Below the pieces are notes generated by a model. It had not been told where the DNA came from. It saw only the letters and a program-made list of their open reading frames with translations, and searched no databases. Shown here in pieces: positions 26,564 to 33,800 of a DNA stretch of 64,000 nt. Each line of letters starts with the position of its first letter. Position 1 is the first letter of the stretch. Both the position numbers and the translations under genes were made by a program. Origin of the DNA: Candidatus Bathyarchaeota archaeon (GTDB lineage Archaea; Thermoproteota; Bathyarchaeia; Bathyarchaeales; Bathycorpusculaceae); assembly GCA_026014585.1 (NCBI GenBank), contig JAOZIA010000002.1, forward strand, positions 231,677 to 295,676. The letters run 5' to 3'.

Positions 26564-27655
26564 TTATGGGTTTGCCTGCATCTTCTCAAGATACTTGGGG
26601 TCCTCACGGAGGACTTTGGGGATGTAATTGCAGGCTGGGTCTGACTCAAACAAGTCACCTGTGTAGTATTCAGCGCGTGTTCTGCATCCACCGCAGATTT
26701 CGCGGTACTCACAAACGCCACATTTGCCTTTGATGTTGCTTTTGTCGCGTAGTTTCATGTGTAGTGGGCTTTGCTGGAGGTCTTCCCATGCTTGGCTTAA
26801 GTGTTTATTTTTTACGTTGCCAATGCGGTAACCTTCGTGGAATCCACAGCTTCGGTAGTCACCGTTCTCGGTGATGCCGATGTAGTTGCCGCCGATAGTG
26901 CATCTACCAAGGTAGCCTTCATTGTACCAGTCCCAGAAGTCAACTGGGTTTTTCTGGCGGACAATGCGTGCGTAGAAAGGTGAGTAAACGTTGACTTTGA
27001 CTTTGCCGTAAAGTTTACGTTGAATATCATAAATTTCGTTGAATGCTGTTTCGTACTGGTCAGGCGTAGGCGCTAAGTCTGGCATGTTGCTGCCTGCTCT
27101 GCCAACTGGGACAAGGTTGTGGTAAACCATCATTCGAGCGTTGTATTTTTCTGCGAGGTATGCAGGGTGCGCCATGTGTTCAATGTTGTATTTTGTCATG
27201 GTTGTGACAATACAGTCCAGTAATCCTACCTTGCCAAGCTTATCCATAGCGCTTACAGCTTTAGCATAACTGCCTTTACGTCGGATAATTTCGTTTGATT
27301 CCTCATTGCCATCAATGCTGACGGCTGTGTGGACTTCATACTTTTGAAGATTTTCATATCTCTTTTCATCCCACGCAAAACCGCTTGTTATGAGGCTAAC
27401 TTCCATGCCGTGTTCTTCCCGAGCATATTTGATGATTTCAAAAATGTCTGGGCGGACCAGTGGTTCTCCTCCACTGATTCCAAACCAATGTGAGCCAAAA
27501 TTGTGGATTTCATCAACCATCTTTTTTGCTTCTTCAGTACTTAATTCCTGATCCTTGGCGTACTCTTTAGTATAACTGCAATACATGCAGTTTCCAACAC
27601 AATTTCTTGTGCAGCGCCAAACCACCATGAATAATGGTGCTCTTTTCCCGCTCAT
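26564..27655 (-). CDS. Radical SAM/SPASM protein (NirJ/AhbC-like)
   Basis: 363 aa from ATG at 27655; an upstream TTG at 27682 is possible. The SAM-cluster motif is CVGNCMYC near residue 20, with GISGGEPLVRPD next. The C-terminal SPASM region carries CTIGG, CGFHEGYRIGN, CGVCEYREICGGCRTRAEYY and PACNYIP. The sequence around CGGCRTRAEYYTGDLFESDP closely resembles the ends of NirJ and AhbC/AhbD, which process siroheme-derived side chains. Other SPASM enzymes modify peptides. No precursor peptide gene is visible and no other Ahb genes are adjacent, so the substrate is open. Confidence 0.82.
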   Translation of the reverse strand: MSGKRAPLFMVVWRCTRNCVGNCMYCSYTKEYAKDQELSTEEAKKMVDEIHNFGSHWFGISGGEPLVRPDIFEIIKYAREEHGMEVSLITSGFAWDEKRYENLQKYEVHTAVSIDGNEESNEIIRRKGSYAKAVSAMDKLGKVGLLDCIVTTMTKYNIEHMAHPAYLAEKYNARMMVYHNLVPVGRAGSNMPDLAPTPDQYETAFNEIYDIQRKLYGKVKVNVYSPFYARIVRQKNPVDFWDWYNEGYLGRCTIGGNYIGITENGDYRSCGFHEGYRIGNVKNKHLSQAWEDLQQSPLHMKLRDKSNIKGKCGVCEYREICGGCRTRAEYYTGDLFESDPACNYIPKVLREDPKYLEKMQANP

Positions 27656-27906
27656 ATATCTCAACAGACAGTGAATAGACAAGCTTAGTGATATAAGATT
27701 TACGATAAAAAATCCTATATTTGATTTTAAGTCAAAAGAAGTGACTATTAGAAGTTTTAATGCTTGAAAGCTTGCTTTTTAGCTTGGGGCACCTCTAATT
27801 ATGTTTTGTTTTAACTTACGGACTATTGCGTAGCTTCATTTTAGAAAGTCTTATTAACTTATCAATGCCAATTTGCTTAGCATTCAATCAAGGAGAAATT
27901 GAAATC

Positions 27907-30060
27907 ATGTCTCAAACAAAAGAATACTCAATTATGACTAAAGATAGACTAATGACCTACACTTTCATTGCACTATTAGCAGTAACAATCGTATCAGCAA
28001 TTATCTGGTGGCCAGTTACGCCACAAAGTCCTATGTTCGAAACAGTCGCTCCAATAAACTTAGGACTTACCCTCATTTTATGCGCATTAATCTCTGTTGG
28101 TGTCGCTGTAGGAATTGACGTTCTCTTTGCTAAACTTGTATCAGACAGCCAATTGAACATCATGTCTGCTGCAGTTTTCGGTTTAATAGTCACTGACTCT
28201 TACACTTTAGGCTTACCTTTAATGGCAACCGAAGCAGGACTTCCAGTTGATGCACCAGGAGCACTAATTTATGTTGCATTAATCAGCATGGTCGGCATGG
28301 TTCTCTTCAAAAAAGTCGCAAACATGGCTGGGCGAAAATACGTTAACCCCGCTGCAGCTGCTAAATTCCTTGTTTTCCTGCCCGGAGCTGGCTCAGTTCT
28401 CATCGCTGCAAACCACCTCAACATTGGCATGGAACTGCCTCGTCTCGCTGGTAAAATAACCGCTTTCGGAAGCTATGATTCATTTGCTACATTTATGAGT
28501 GCATGCTTTGGAAATCCAAATCTAACAACTCAACCAGACCTCGCCTACCTCATGATTGTTGAAAAATTCCACGGTTGGGCTGGTGGTGCCTGCAGTATCG
28601 CTGTTATAATTGCTGGTCTTGCGCTATTCGTAGTTGCTCGCAGATACATTAAATGGAGAATTACTCTTGCATACTTTGTTTCAATTGCTGCTATGTCTTT
28701 GATATTGTCCTTTGTTTATGCAGATGTTGACTTAATTACACGGTTACTCTGGACTGTTTTCATCGGTAGCTCAATATTCTTGGGCTTCTTCATGGCAACA
28801 GACCCAGCGACTACGCCTGTAGGCCGCTACGGACAAATAATCTTCGGTGTCGGCTTAGGTGTCCTCACCGTACTAATTCAAACATACATGAACTTCTTCG
28901 GCGGCTCACTCCTAGCACTACTTATCATGAACCTGCTCACACCAAAGATTGACGGCATCGGCAGACTAAAACCAATGGAAGGCGGAAAAGAACCCTCACT
29001 TCCAAAAGCAAAGAAATTCGACAAAATCAAAACCTATCCATGTATGCGCTGTGGTGCATGCATGAGCGTATGCTGCAACAAACTTAGCCCAATTCTCATC
29101 AAACAAGCACGCGACAAACAAGATATGAAGACACTGCTCAAACTTGACGCTGACTTCTGTGCTGGCTGTGGAAACTGCAACTTCATATGCCCATCAAGAA
29201 TTGACCTCAAGAGCAACCTGCTAAACACAGTGCTAACTGCTGAAGATGAAGAAACAATTGAACAAAGCTTCCTTATCGGCAATCCAGACGAAAACATTGG
29301 CGTTTACAAAGAAATGTTCTCAGCCAAGAGCAAATACGAAGGACAAGACGGTGGTATGGTAACAGCCCTGCTGATTTCCGGCATGGAGAAAGGCATCTTT
29401 GACTCTGCAATAGTAGTCAAGAAGACCAAAGGTTACCTCTCAGAAGCATACGTCGCAGAAAGCGCAGAAGACATCATCCAAGCTAAAGGCACAAAATACA
29501 TGCGCGTACGCCTAATGTCAAAGGTAGGCGAACTCATCGCTAAAGGCAAACGCAAAATCGCAGTAGTCGGCACACCATGCGAAATCAGAGCAGCAAGACG
29601 CGTACAGCAAGCAATGATGACCGACGTTCCAGACCTAGAATTGACCATGATTGGCCTATTCTGCTTTGAAAACTTCGAATACCCCAAGCTAAAAGAAGAA
29701 ATCAAGACAAAACTCGGCGTTGACTTAGATGCAGCAGAAAAGACACAGATTAGCAAAGGTAAATTCATCGTTACAGTTGACGGAAAAGATAGTGCAATCG
29801 CAGTCAAAGAGCTCAGCAGTGCAGTTGAAAACATGTGCTTATCATGCCCAGACTTCAGCTCAAAGTTCGCTGATATCTCCGTTGGTTCAGTTGGTAGCGA
29901 AGCAGGCAAATCAACAGTTATTGTCCGCTCATCAATCGGTGAGCAACTAGTTGAAGGTCTTGACATAACCAAGAGCGAAGCTAAACTTGAAGAAGTCTCA
30001 AAGCTGTCAGTTCTCAAGAAGAACCGTGCAGAAAAAACAGTTGCTGGCGAATCTGAATAA
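27907..30060 (+). CDS. RnfD/NqrB-like membrane domain fused to 2x[4Fe-4S] and FrhB-type domain
   Basis: 717 aa from ATG at 27907, chosen for AAGGAG 10 bases upstream; the frame extends to TTG at 27826. Residues 1-360 have about 9-10 membrane segments with RKYVNPAAAAKF and FFMATDPATTPVGRYG, as in NqrB/RnfD. The covalent-flavin SGAT motif of RnfD/NqrB is not seen. Residues 378-430 hold two clusters, CMRCGACMSVCC and CAGCGNCNFICP. Residues 480-700 are FrhB-like (DGGMVTALL, VVGTPCEIRAARR, CLSCPDFSSKFADISVGSVG), the F420- and flavin-binding module of FrhB/FpoF. One chain therefore links a soluble F420H2/ferredoxin-type oxidoreductase to an ion-pump-like membrane module. A strong hairpin terminator follows, and a membrane partner gene lies 200 bases downstream. 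Confidence 0.87.
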   Translation: MSQTKEYSIMTKDRLMTYTFIALLAVTIVSAIIWWPVTPQSPMFETVAPINLGLTLILCALISVGVAVGIDVLFAKLVSDSQLNIMSAAVFGLIVTDSYTLGLPLMATEAGLPVDAPGALIYVALISMVGMVLFKKVANMAGRKYVNPAAAAKFLVFLPGAGSVLIAANHLNIGMELPRLAGKITAFGSYDSFATFMSACFGNPNLTTQPDLAYLMIVEKFHGWAGGACSIAVIIAGLALFVVARRYIKWRITLAYFVSIAAMSLILSFVYADVDLITRLLWTVFIGSSIFLGFFMATDPATTPVGRYGQIIFGVGLGVLTVLIQTYMNFFGGSLLALLIMNLLTPKIDGIGRLKPMEGGKEPSLPKAKKFDKIKTYPCMRCGACMSVCCNKLSPILIKQARDKQDMKTLLKLDADFCAGCGNCNFICPSRIDLKSNLLNTVLTAEDEETIEQSFLIGNPDENIGVYKEMFSAKSKYEGQDGGMVTALLISGMEKGIFDSAIVVKKTKGYLSEAYVAESAEDIIQAKGTKYMRVRLMSKVGELIAKGKRKIAVVGTPCEIRAARRVQQAMMTDVPDLELTMIGLFCFENFEYPKLKEEIKTKLGVDLDAAEKTQISKGKFIVTVDGKDSAIAVKELSSAVENMCLSCPDFSSKFADISVGSVGSEAGKSTVIVRSSIGEQLVEGLDITKSEAKLEEVSKLSVLKKNRAEKTVAGESE

Positions 30061-30064
30061 GCCA

Positions 30065-30096
30065 AGAAAAAGCTTTAACCCCTTTTTCTTTTTTTG
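30065..30096 (+). terminator. Hairpin terminator after the RnfD-FrhB fusion
   Basis: AGAAAAAG (30065-30072) pairs perfectly with CTTTTTCT (30082-30089) around a 9-base loop and is followed by a T run. It separates the fusion gene from its downstream neighbour, which has its own TATA box. Confidence 0.6.
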
Positions 30097-30193
30097 TTGT
30101 CTGTTTATTTTTTTGTCTTTGTTTTTGTAAGACCATTTTTTTTTATTCAAACTTGCCTTAATCTTGGTTTAAGGGCACGTTCGAAGGATTAAA

Positions 30194-30201
30194 TTTATAA
30201 A
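30194..30201 (+). promoter_or_regulatory. TATA box for the downstream membrane protein
   Basis: TTTATAAA within AAATTTATAAAC, about 68 bases before ATG at 30262. The predicted start near 30220-30225 is followed by a GAGGG ribosome site at 30230-30234. That site is well placed for ACG at 30241 and badly placed for the ATG. Confidence 0.5.
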
Positions 30202-30261
30202 CGCCTCAGAGCCAATTAATGAATCAAAAGAGGGATAAATACGGAACCAGAAAAATTTAAA

Positions 30262-30957
30262 ATGAAAGACGTTCTCTGGGGCTTAGTAATTCCAGTTCTT
30301 GTCGGTTTATTAATAATTGCTTTCCCAGCGATTTTCCGTCCAGGACTAGATGGTCTATTTCCACCAGCAGACATGGCAGCAGGAACATCCGCACACCCCT
30401 TAGCAGTCATCACCACAATTCTAACCCACGGTTTCGCCTTGATAGTAGTTTTCGCTATCCCTGTCGTCTTAGGCCTACTTTGGAATAAATGGGCTGGAGG
30501 CGCAGCAGGCTTTATCATGGGCACGCTATACTACATCGCATTCGCAGCATACAACAACTGGGAAAACATGCTAAACTTCCTTCCATTCACAGTTTCAGAC
30601 GGCGCAATCAACGGAGCCGCACTTAACTCTTATCTACCAAACCTCTTCAATGACTCAAGCTTCATCGGCGCATACATTATTGGCGGTATACTAATCGGCT
30701 ACATCGCAGGTGCACTATGCAATGGCTCAACAAACTTCCTACGTATGCTCGGCTCAGGTTTAACCGCAGCACTCACAGTTGGCATCATCACTTTCGTCCT
30801 TAACTACACTGTCTCTTACGGTGCATGGATGACTCAGAACAACCCAGGCTTTGCCCTGTTCACAACAATGCTTCCTTTGATACTCTTAGGCATTATCGCG
30901 CCAGTCATCTCTAAAGTAATGACATGGTACGGTATAACCCCAACACAGAAATACTAA
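30262..30957 (+). CDS. Six-helix membrane protein, probable partner of the RnfD-FrhB fusion
   Basis: 231 aa with about six membrane segments (WGLVIPVLVGLLIIAFPAIF, IVVFAIPVVLGLL, IGAYIIGGILIGYIAGAL, ALTVGIITFVLNY and others). No recognised family. The only Shine-Dalgarno-like site (GAGGG) sits 6 bases before an in-frame ACG at 30241, which would add seven residues (TEPEKFK). The stated ATG start is therefore conservative. Its codon use and orientation match the fusion gene 200 bases upstream. It may be a second membrane subunit of that complex, but no sequence motif proves this. Confidence 0.6.
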   Translation: MKDVLWGLVIPVLVGLLIIAFPAIFRPGLDGLFPPADMAAGTSAHPLAVITTILTHGFALIVVFAIPVVLGLLWNKWAGGAAGFIMGTLYYIAFAAYNNWENMLNFLPFTVSDGAINGAALNSYLPNLFNDSSFIGAYIIGGILIGYIAGALCNGSTNFLRMLGSGLTAALTVGIITFVLNYTVSYGAWMTQNNPGFALFTTMLPLILLGIIAPVISKVMTWYGITPTQKY

Positions 30958-31018: not shown

Positions 31019-32356
31019 TTAGAGCTTGCTTTTGCTCTTGTCAAGATTTGAGAATTCCCAAGCAATGTTGCCTTTCCAGATGTCACCGAGCCTTGTGATT
31101 TTAACTTCTTCATCGTTAACTTCAATTAAGCCCTTTGCAACAAGGTTTTTGATTTGCTCTGGGAAGACATCTTCTGGTCGTTTGCCGAATTTCTCCATGA
31201 ACTCGGCTTTGCTTACTGGTAACCGTAAGTAGAGGCGACTCATTTCTCTGCGCATCATGTCTTCATCGTTTGATTTTGAGAGTCTGCTGATTGGGAACTT
31301 ACCTGTTTTTACAGCTTCTATGTATTGGTTAATGTCTTCAATGTTAGAGTAGCTGAAACGTTGCAGATAGCCCATGAAGCATCCTGCGCCAGTGGTTAAT
31401 ATGCCACCCCATGGCCAACCGTTGAGGCAGTTTTCTCGTACGTGCCATTCAACTCTTGTGAATCGGTCGTGTCCAACAGCTTTGTAGCCTGCTTTTGTTA
31501 GCAGGTCGTATGCTGCCAGATACAGTTTTTCGCCGTGTTTGGCGTCTCCTTGTGGTGGTGCCTTTCCTGCTTTAATTGATTTGTCTAATGCTGTTCCAGG
31601 ATGAATTTCCAAATGGTATGTGTCAATTTCTACGTCTAAGTCGATTGCTTTCTGTAAGGTTTCCACCCAGCTTTCAACTGTTTGTCCTGGCAGGTTATAC
31701 ATCAGGTCGATACAAACACACATGCCCAGTTTCCGCGCGGTTTTGATGGCTTCTTCTACGTGTTCTGCTGGGTCGGGTAGGCAAAGGAACTTGCGGACTT
31801 GGTTGTCAAAAGATTGGGCACCCATGTCTAGTTGGTAAACTCCGTATTCTGCGAGTTTCTCAATTTTGTGTGGAGCCAAAGTTTTAGATGAACCGGTTAC
31901 TTTAATGAAGTATTCTTTACTAGTGGTAAAGTTTGCCTTACAATAATCTAGTATGTCAATTATTTGCTCAGCTGACAGGATGCTTGGGGTTCCACCACCT
32001 AAAACTATCTCGTCAAAAACGCTTGTTTTTACGTATTTTGTTTTAGCATACATGCCTAGCTCTTTTTTGAGAGCAATAAGGTACTCGTCCACGCTTGCCT
32101 TGTTTGTGGCTGTGGTTGGGAAATAGCAGAATGCGCATCTTGAATCACAAAAGGATACCCATGGCTGAAGCTCCATTAGCCTGTTAGAAGTATTTTCAGT
32201 GTCAAGGAACTTCATGTAAGATTGATAGGTTTCTGGTTTTATGTCAGGGTAATCCCTGTAGGTGTATGGTGGCCAGGTTTCTCTGGCTTCAAAGGCGTCT
32301 TTTTTGTTTTGCTCGGTTTTTGTTTCCATAATTTTTTGGCCTTCGGACATTTTCAA
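31019..32356 (-). CDS. HemN/HemW-like radical SAM protein
   Basis: 445 aa. The cluster motif is CDSRCAFCYF near residue 70, with VLGGGTPSILSAEQIIDILD, GAQSFDNQVRKFL and CIDLMYNLPGQTVESW, all hallmarks of the HemN/HemW superfamily. The C-terminus has the winged HemN_C-like region (LYLRLPVSKAEFMEKFGK). HemW is a haem chaperone, HemN is coproporphyrinogen dehydrogenase, and ChuW-type relatives methylate and open haem. Nothing in this sequence decides between them. Three successive leftward or adjacent radical SAM genes and the redox fusion next door suggest a shared low-potential electron supply. Confidence 0.82.
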   Translation of the reverse strand: MKMSEGQKIMETKTEQNKKDAFEARETWPPYTYRDYPDIKPETYQSYMKFLDTENTSNRLMELQPWVSFCDSRCAFCYFPTTATNKASVDEYLIALKKELGMYAKTKYVKTSVFDEIVLGGGTPSILSAEQIIDILDYCKANFTTSKEYFIKVTGSSKTLAPHKIEKLAEYGVYQLDMGAQSFDNQVRKFLCLPDPAEHVEEAIKTARKLGMCVCIDLMYNLPGQTVESWVETLQKAIDLDVEIDTYHLEIHPGTALDKSIKAGKAPPQGDAKHGEKLYLAAYDLLTKAGYKAVGHDRFTRVEWHVRENCLNGWPWGGILTTGAGCFMGYLQRFSYSNIEDINQYIEAVKTGKFPISRLSKSNDEDMMRREMSRLYLRLPVSKAEFMEKFGKRPEDVFPEQIKNLVAKGLIEVNDEEVKITRLGDIWKGNIAWEFSNLDKSKSKL

Positions 32357-32435: not shown

Positions 32436-33800
32436 TTACATCTTGAGAACTTGTTTAAGAACATGCAAAGCGCCTTCACGGCGTATTTTGCGCAAAATAC
32501 GTTTAGGTGAACGGTTAAAACTCACATGCATACTCCGCTGTATCTTCATCATTTGGTCAAAATCAAACTCCTTTGTCTTCACGTAATAGATGAAGTCCTC
32601 TACACGGTCATAGTAGTGGTTAGCTAAAACTTCCTCATGCAACACGCTGCCCGGGTACGACAGGAAAATGTTAAAGCTACACCAGTCAGGGTCAATCTTC
32701 TTTGCAAACTTGAGCGTGGTTTCCATGTCCTTTATGGTTTCGCCGGGGATGCCGATCATGAATGAGCAGGCAACTTGGATTCCCGCATCGTGACACAGCT
32801 GAACTCCCTTAGCTGATTGCTCAACTGTTATGCCTTTATTGATTTTTTTAAGAATTGGCGGCGAACCTGATTCTAAACCAAACCATATGGTTTTGCATCC
32901 TGCATCTTTCATAGCAGAAAGCATCTCTGGGTCAATTAAGTCCACGCGGGTATCACAAACCCACTGCATATCCAAATTTCTTTCTTTGAGTTCACGGCAA
33001 AACTCCAAGGTTTCTTTCTGTTTAAGCGTGAAGTTGTCACTGATTAAGTAGACGCCTTTGCTGCCAAAATTCTTAGACAAGTCTTCCATTTCGTCAACGA
33101 TTCGTTTGGGGCTAAACATTCGGCAGGTCTTACCCCACAAGGGTGCAATGTCACAGTAAGCGCAACTATAGGGGCAACCACGTGTAACACTCATTATGTC
33201 AACAGGTTCTACATCCAAAAACTCAATTCGTCTACCATATTGATCCATTGGCAGTAGGTGCCGTGCGGGAAAAGGAATCGAGTCAATGTCTTTGATGAAT
33301 TTAGCGGGGTTCTTTATGTTTTGACCCATTTTCCTGTAAACAACACCCGCTATGTCAGGGACGCCTTTGCCTGTGTTGATATAGTTAGCAAGCTCAGCCA
33401 TCGCCTGCTCCCCCTCACCCATGACAACATAATCAATTACGGGTTGCTCAATTAGGCTTTCAGGGGAATAAGAAGCATGCCATCCACCCACGACAACTTT
33501 GCAGTTTGGGTCAACCTCCTTAATTGCTGCGGCGGTTTCGATGCAACGTTGATAGGTTGCTGAGCCACAAGTCATGCCTACGATTTGGGGTTTTTTGGTT
33601 TGAATAATCTGCTTAACTTCCTCAATGGGCTTGTTAAGCATGTAATTGTCCAATATTTCAACTTCAAAACCGCATTTTTCAAGGTAGCCAGCAACAAACG
33701 CTAATCCTAAGGGGGGCAGTTTTCTTCCAAGATACCATGGTGCATTCGATGGCGGTGCAGTGGTCATTAATAAAATCATTTTTTTATCCCAAATCGGCAT
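32436..33800 (-). CDS. B12-binding-domain radical SAM protein, copy 3
   Basis: 454 aa. The N-terminal Rossmann B12 domain (PPLGLAFVAGYLEKCGFEVE, ILDNYMLNK, VVVGGWHASYSPE, YVVMGEGEQAMAEL) is followed by radical SAM CX3CX2C in CPYSCAYCDIAPLWGKTCR near residue 215. The barrel (GVYLISDNFTLK, TIWFGLESGSPPILKKINKG) and a basic C-terminal tail (SPKRILRKIRREGALHVLK) complete it. It shares length and order with the tandem pair at 15142 and 16613 but is clearly more distant. A start at 33779 (MILLMTTAPPS) is also possible. Expected chemistry is methylation or rearrangement of an unactivated carbon; the substrate is unknown. Confidence 0.87.
   Translation of the reverse strand: MPIWDKKMILLMTTAPPSNAPWYLGRKLPPLGLAFVAGYLEKCGFEVEILDNYMLNKPIEEVKQIIQTKKPQIVGMTCGSATYQRCIETAAAIKEVDPNCKVVVGGWHASYSPESLIEQPVIDYVVMGEGEQAMAELANYINTGKGVPDIAGVVYRKMGQNIKNPAKFIKDIDSIPFPARHLLPMDQYGRRIEFLDVEPVDIMSVTRGCPYSCAYCDIAPLWGKTCRMFSPKRIVDEMEDLSKNFGSKGVYLISDNFTLKQKETLEFCRELKERNLDMQWVCDTRVDLIDPEMLSAMKDAGCKTIWFGLESGSPPILKKINKGITVEQSAKGVQLCHDAGIQVACSFMIGIPGETIKDMETTLKFAKKIDPDWCSFNIFLSYPGSVLHEEVLANHYYDRVEDFIYYVKTKEFDFDQMMKIQRSMHVSFNRSPKRILRKIRREGALHVLKQVLKM

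Follow-up and report, generated by a model that had tools for sequence, protein, structure and literature searches.

What does a membrane subunit of the Rnf/Nqr type do when it stands apart from the rest of its complex and is joined, in a single chain, to a module for coenzyme F420? This question is raised by a locus in a 64,000-nucleotide stretch of DNA (the window; positions 231677-295676 of contig JAOZIA010000002.1, assembly GCA_026014585.1) from a 2.31 Mb, 95.6% complete genome, the host of which is a bathyarchaeon close to Candidatus (Ca.) Bathycorpusculum. A first-pass annotation of the window had seen there a chain composed of an NqrB/RnfD-like membrane half, two [4Fe-4S] clusters and an FrhB half, followed by a second membrane protein, and had proposed a minimal two-subunit, ion-translocating F420H2:ferredoxin oxidoreductase not described before. 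We confirmed the three-part RnfD-ferredoxin-FrhB fusion; the unit is read here, with middling confidence, as a pared-down transmembrane electron-transfer unit derived from Rnf/Nqr, which takes F420 instead of reduced nicotinamide adenine dinucleotide (NADH) as its cytoplasmic substrate, a wire and not an ion pump of the Rnf type.

The reading frame at 27907-30060 on the forward strand is open throughout and encodes 717 amino acids; the ATG at 27907 agrees as a start with the N-termini of homologs (MSKxKEYSxMTKD), whereas a TTG at 27826 disagrees with them. The domain order seen in the first pass was borne out by Pfam, by cysteine motifs and by the folds of an AlphaFold2 (AF2) model (mean predicted local distance difference test, pLDDT, 79.5; confident at about residues 12-165, 190-350 and 470-710). 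PF03116 (NQR2_RnfD_RnfE) covers residues 13-351 (E 1.4e-31; 110 bits vs a cut-off of 27.7), and the membrane half of the model resembles the RnfD chains 9eri_D (template modelling score by target, TMt, 0.73), 8ahx_D and 7zc6_D. The two ferredoxin motifs (C379-x2-C382-x2-C385-x3-C389 and C418-x2-C421-x2-C424-x3-C428) lie in a domain closest to the C-terminal domain of RnfC, as judged by an NCBIfam rnfC match (to positions 354-422; E 9e-11) and by RnfC chains in the PDB. That the last half is of the F420 type is upheld by PF04422 (FrhB_N) at 471-536 (E 4.9e-15), PF04432 (FrhB_C) at 549-688 (E 1.2e-36), which exceed their Pfam cut-offs by a wide margin, and a fold resembling 9r51_B (TMt 0.82); it retains QDGG, GSVGS and four cluster cysteines (C558, C586, C644 and C647), matches 7np8_A (2e-41) and 9r51_B (2e-36) in sequence, and stays below the NCBIfam equivalog cut-offs for FrhB and FpoF (148.8 bits vs 475 for the FpoF model). 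A search for the same fusion recovered it in four further genomes; an origin as an assembly artefact is ruled out by its presence in five.

Residue conservation in the membrane half was counted over 54 RnfD homologs, with equivalences taken from a profile alignment. In the Rnf complex of Acetobacterium woodii, RnfD binds riboflavin through N123 and D249, and alanine substitution of either residue abolishes activity (PMC11889175). The equivalents in the fusion, N147 and D299, are kept in all 53 homologs with a residue at the former position and in 54/54 at the latter, and riboflavin would probably be bound by its RnfD half as well. In Rnf, a Thr of RnfD that carries flavin mononucleotide (FMN; T153 or T156) sits in the outer five-helix linker (PMC9588780, PMC11889175). 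Among the 54 homologs the linker has no aligned [S/D]GAT flavinylation motif, as the first-pass annotation had noted for the SGAT site of this chain, and the covalent-FMN Thr is absent from all; two isolated TGAT strings at non-equivalent positions were judged to be chance. Loss of the Thr together with retained riboflavin ligands is the same pattern as in the published Nqr/Rnf-like subunits, in which the Thr is lost and the flavin pocket retained according to Huang et al. 2024 (PMC10979944). The outer linker instead conserves H170 and H222 (each in 54/54) and C200 (52/54). Lys and Arg of the membrane half number 12 on the predicted inner loops vs 3 on the outer loops, and this positive-inside bias places both termini, hence the ferredoxin and FrhB domains, in the cytoplasm and the Cys/His/His set outside.

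The fusion gene is the only PF03116 gene in the genome. No match was found genome-wide for RnfA/RnfE (PF02508), for the NADH/FMN domain of RnfC/NuoF (PF01512; present in termite relatives), for RnfG/NqrC FMN_bind (PF04205) or for ApbE (PF02424), the positive controls being detected in each search; FMN_bind and ApbE also gave no match in 10 relatives, RnfC-bearing ones included. A complete Rnf elsewhere in the genome was rejected on these results (RnfB was not searched), and the statement of the first-pass annotation that RnfC, RnfG and other Rnf parts are missing holds within the same scope. CofD, of F420 biosynthesis, is present above its cut-off, so the host probably synthesizes F420. Five other genes of the genome contain FrhB_C; they are located in apparent polysaccharide clusters, and the ones that can be aligned to the fusion share only about 25% identity with it.

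In Rnf structures, the proximal cluster of RnfC exchanges electrons with the riboflavin of RnfD (PMC12174285, PMC9588780). Since the ferredoxin domain of the fusion is RnfC-like, the fusion appears to preserve this RnfD-cluster junction and to alter the terminal module. Within Rnf, RnfD shuttles electrons between the outer RnfG and the inner RnfC clusters, and in A. woodii Na+ passes through RnfA/E (PMC12174285, PMC11889175); the RnfD and RnfC-cluster parts being kept and RnfA/E and RnfG dropped, a transmembrane wire without a pump is suggested. Hydride from F420H2 would enter at flavin adenine dinucleotide (FAD) in the FrhB domain, from which electrons would pass to the FrhB [4Fe-4S] cluster, to the two clusters of the ferredoxin domain and to the riboflavin site of RnfD close to the inner face; from riboflavin they would cross the membrane to the site of H170, C200 and H222 and leave for a membrane or extracytoplasmic acceptor, with the six-helix protein encoded downstream as second subunit or as a carrier or cofactor handler partnering the fusion. 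F420 specificity, electron path and direction are all inferred. This reading agrees with the published one-way model of Nqr/Rnf-like systems (PMC8238504), F420 taking the place of NAD(P)H. Several points weigh against it. Ser replaces C200 in 2/54 homologs; AF2 confidence is low over the ferredoxin linker and over residues 169-176, so that the model leaves the Cys/His/His site unresolved; at 95.6% completeness the absence of the Rnf parts is strong, not absolute; and the locus has no linked extracytoplasmic redox protein of the FMN_bind or multihaem kind, which leaves the model without its outer acceptor. The unit could serve an intramembrane or cytoplasmic substrate instead.

The six-helix membrane protein is a genuine companion of the RnfD unit, as shown by co-occurrence: when genomes were sorted by presence of the RnfD region, an ortholog was found in 44 of the 45 that bear it (none in G160) and in 0/19 that lack it, three of the latter carrying more distant paralogs. 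The claim of a second membrane protein, and with it of a two-protein unit, is upheld by these counts. In six of the 44 genomes the gene is present as fragments only, mostly at contig ends; these are termite-gut assemblies (G144, G141, G175, G177, G189 and G167). Homolog alignments and the AF2 model (pLDDT 81) indicate a real protein, for which no Pfam or NCBIfam model gave a match. Its gene usually lies directly after the RnfD gene; the window's copy has a TATA-like box to itself, with a T-rich stretch before it, and in two loci (L050 and L051) it lies on the opposite strand, and for these reasons we call it a companion and not a strict operon partner. A sigma-70 promoter scan gave no signal exceeding that of shuffled sequence, the outcome to be expected in an archaeon. 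Foldseek searches with the AF2 model ranked S-components of energy-coupling factor (ECF) transporters first (ThiT and RibU; probability 0.77-1.00, TMt 0.45-0.60, E at least 0.3), and Pfam ECF matched just 2/27 family members at E 0.22; the fold is thus weakly S-component-like, and we do not call the protein an S-component.

Two further observations concern this companion. Its homologs start with METEKFK, and the window (30230-30262) has an in-frame ACG-GAA-CCA-GAA-AAA-TTT-AAA ahead of the first ATG; GAGGG stands six bases upstream of the ACG. The frame may start at this ACG (30241), possibly a non-ATG start or an altered start codon. Paralogs also occur in arsenic-type loci with ArsR, an SBF/ACR3 transporter, ArsC and ArsM (L169:7148-7756, which is at C23:61162 of the window's own genome, and L170-L179), where they often adjoin small 2x[4Fe-4S] ferredoxins.

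A search of 84,980 species genomes with the RnfD-ferredoxin alignment yielded 61 loci. Of these, 48 are bathyarchaeal (L078-L125; a few are titled Nitrososphaerota or Crenarchaeota, yet group among the bathyarchaeal ones), and the remainder are distant bacterial relatives, several inside canonical Rnf operons. Three architectures were found among the bathyarchaeal loci: (i) the full RnfD-ferredoxin-FrhB fusion, in the window and in L078, L079, L080 and L081 (the same locus as L033, its N-terminus lost at a contig end); (ii) RnfD-ferredoxin without FrhB, of about 436-474 amino acids, the most frequent form once the termite group is set aside; and (iii) RnfD of about 361-416 amino acids lacking ferredoxin, with an overlapping RnfC gene (430 amino acids; TIGR01945, 411 bits vs a cut-off of 246) after it in nearly all cases, in termite-gut and related Bathycorpusculum (L041-L044, L101-L125). 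One RnfD lineage is thereby shown combined with an NADH module (RnfC), an F420 module (FrhB) or a bare two-cluster domain. FrhB is dispensable to the unit, most relatives having RnfD-ferredoxin alone and the termite-gut relatives RnfC.

The FrhB halves of all five fusions cluster together in a domain tree (91/85), nested in a clade of FrhBs of 475-490 amino acids that adjoin NuoE/NuoF-like proteins; when RnfD domains are used for the tree, the complete fusions, four in number, are scattered over four separate places between RnfD-ferredoxin proteins that stand alone. Pairwise identities give the same picture: L079 and L033 are 57, 76 and 80% identical in RnfD, ferredoxin and FrhB, respectively, and L079 and L080 are 72, 78 and 71% identical in the same domains. 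These data are most simply read as the swapping of a ferredoxin-FrhB cassette among RnfD genes already in place; a less simple alternative, which may hold since the two trees agree in parts, is that the fusion is ancient and FrhB was lost from it repeatedly.

Other FrhBs met in these searches deserve mention on their own account. In five loci (L053, L063, L064, L068 and L071), the long FrhBs of 475-490 amino acids share what look like operons with proteins resembling NuoE and NuoF and with subunits of CO dehydrogenase/acetyl-CoA synthase; this is a candidate module coupling CO dehydrogenase, NAD(P)H and F420. Stand-alone FrhBs occur beside CofE (F420 gamma-glutamyl ligase) and a conserved 241-amino-acid protein (L055-L067, L042:3781-4641). 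Capture of the fusion's FrhB half from this second kind was rejected, the tree grouping the fusion with the long, NuoEF-linked FrhBs. The 241-amino-acid protein is matched by neither Pfam nor NCBIfam, and a search for it in the window's genome, made without a positive control, gave no match; a MetF-like appearance by eye is not supported by Pfam or NCBIfam, and no C1-pathway claim is made for it.

Among known systems, Nqr/Rnf-like ones have been published by Meheust et al. 2021 (PMC8238504) and Huang et al. 2024 (PMC10979944), and the unit is best read as their counterpart for F420. Like these, it combines an NqrB/RnfD membrane half with a cytosolic input half in a single chain, has lost the flavinylated Thr while keeping an apparent non-covalent flavin site, seems to use a second subunit and lacks RnfA/E. 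Their input, however, is a PF00175 NAD-binding domain, which gave no match in the fusion (ferredoxin and FrhB stand there), and their partner is an FMN_bind protein like NqrC/RnfG, accompanied by ApbE, both of which are absent here, an unrelated six-helix partner being found instead. With RnfABCDGE the fusion shares the RnfD fold, the Asn and Asp riboflavin ligands and the RnfC-type 2x[4Fe-4S] domain, but RnfA, RnfE, RnfG and the covalent FMN site are missing and FrhB replaces the NADH/FMN part of RnfC. Since two of the defining Nqr/Rnf-like features and most Rnf features are thus lacking, we consider the fusion a variant and not a member of these families. FrhB, FpoF, FqoF and the N-terminal part of Fsr share with it FrhB_N and FrhB_C, the cluster cysteines, QDGG, GSVGS and the fold; these, however, sit on a hydrogenase, a complex I-like arm, Hdr or sulfite reductase, whereas here the module is fused to an RnfD membrane domain. 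Another relative is the RnfD+RnfC pair of termite-gut Bathycorpusculum, with the same RnfD lineage, similar neighbours and the same six-helix companion, though with a separate, overlapping NADH-type RnfC gene where the window has ferredoxin-FrhB.

The texts of PMC8238504 and PMC10979944 do not mention F420, and no publication joining FrhB with RnfD or NqrB was found in the searched literature, which excludes most subscription journals; to that extent the suggestion that the protein had not been described before stands. For Bathyarchaea, Rnf and F420 together, only papers with partial or no Rnf matches were found: a study of Siberian Bathyarchaeota records isolated RnfD and RnfC matches without interpreting them as an F420 fusion (PMC9534799), and one of termite Bathyarchaeia reports no RnfABCDEG and calls the source of F420H2 unclear (PMC7886697).

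The fusion and its companion are flanked by three radical SAM (S-adenosylmethionine) genes (Table 1), which are found again near RnfD in most of the bathyarchaeal loci. Their best matches, all below the family cut-offs, hint at tetrapyrrole-like chemistry; that the RnfD unit gives electrons to these enzymes or takes them from them is only an idea. A heme or tetrapyrrole cofactor supplied to RnfD by these neighbours was demoted on account of the scores and because the siroheme decarboxylases AhbA/B were not found in the window's genome or in most relatives. An explanation in which the neighbours and the companion take part, unlikely in our estimate, is a membrane enzyme that reduces a cofactor or metal brought in from outside. 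The S-component-like protein would import or move a vitamin, corrinoid, flavin or tetrapyrrole, RnfD-ferredoxin-FrhB would reduce this cargo with F420H2, and the radical SAM enzymes would use or modify it. The Foldseek ranking of ThiT and RibU, neighbours whose best matches (AhbD, HutW/HemN, BchE) act on tetrapyrroles and one of which binds B12, and the ars-locus paralogs beside small ferredoxins speak for it, but the Foldseek E value of 0.3 is poor, the Pfam ECF signal negligible, the radical SAM scores and the missing AhbA/B count against it, and no EcfT/EcfA was seen adjacent to the locus, although neither was searched for.

Quite unlikely is an F420H2 oxidoreductase for a lipid-soluble carrier, with RnfD reducing a quinone-like molecule within the membrane; Fqo and Fpo are precedents of F420H2:quinone/methanophenazine enzymes. 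NqrB does hand electrons from riboflavin to ubiquinone (PMC9325719), but methanophenazine biosynthesis is reported absent from Bathy-6 (PMC7886697). Nor is any downstream quinol-consuming enzyme linked to the locus. FrhB enzymes are generally reversible, and an outer or membrane donor might instead reduce F420, making the unit a possible source of F420H2 for termite Bathyarchaeia. The source of F420H2 in these archaea, stated to be unclear (PMC7886697), would fit such a reversal, but the termite genomes of that study were found here to have RnfC, not FrhB, on RnfD, and there is no candidate donor; we consider it improbable. The minimal two-subunit, ion-pumping F420H2:ferredoxin oxidoreductase of the first-pass annotation is barely credible: RnfD was formerly proposed as an ion channel (PMC9588780) and the two-protein part of the proposal stands, but ion translocation is unsupported: RnfA/E, the subunits to which ion pumping is assigned, are absent along with RnfG, mutation and simulation work in A. 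woodii assigns no ion transport and finds no ion path in RnfD (PMC11889175), and the ferredoxin domain would be an internal wire like that of RnfC, with no sign of a separate, soluble ferredoxin substrate.

Table 1. Features of the RnfD locus, in window coordinates
Feature	Position	Strand	Basis
Radical SAM/SPASM protein, conserved neighbour	26564..27682	-	best NCBIfam AhbD, below cut-off
RnfD-ferredoxin-FrhB fusion protein, 717 aa	27907..30060	+	Pfam, NCBIfam, PDB sequence and fold matches; start backed by homologs
RnfD/NqrB-like membrane domain, aa 1-355	27907..28971	+	10 predicted transmembrane helices, N-terminus inside; PF03116, AF2, charge bias
N147 (VNPAA), equivalent of A. woodii RnfD N123	28345..28347	+	profile alignment
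Extracytoplasmic five-helix linker, aa 166-229, with H170, C200, H222	28402..28593	+	54-homolog conservation
D299 (in FMATDP), corresponding to A. woodii D249 / NqrB D346	28801..28803	+	alignment
2x[4Fe-4S] ferredoxin domain, aa 373-440	29023..29226	+	NCBIfam rnfC match, PDB RnfC chains
FrhB F420-oxidoreductase domain, aa 465-713	29299..30045	+	PF04422/PF04432, PDB sequence matches, fold
Six-helix membrane companion, 231 aa from first ATG	30262..30957	+	co-occurrence with RnfD, alignments, AF2
HemN/HutW-like radical SAM protein, conserved neighbour	31019..32356	-	best NCBIfam HutW/HemN, below cut-off
B12-binding radical SAM protein, conserved neighbour	32436..33800	-	best NCBIfam BchE, below cut-off

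Bathyarchaeia are abundant and largely uncultured, and how they dispose of or are supplied with F420H2 is an open question in the literature (PMC7886697). A family-wide RnfD unit with interchangeable inputs, NADH through RnfC and F420 through FrhB, is a concrete, testable candidate for the handling of F420H2, and it carries the idea of one-way transmembrane transfer by Nqr/Rnf-like systems over to F420. In a wider and distinctly tentative reading, these proteins would represent a class of F420-linked transmembrane conduits, built of RnfD, an RnfC-derived ferredoxin and a lineage-swapped FrhB cassette, with a Cys/His/His site for redox chemistry or metal on the outer side, replacing covalent FMN, and an S-component-like partner, through which Bathyarchaeia might discharge F420H2 to the outside or draw electrons from it. 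The RnfD units of Bathyarchaeia are, moreover, a natural experiment in what RnfD is capable of without the pump.

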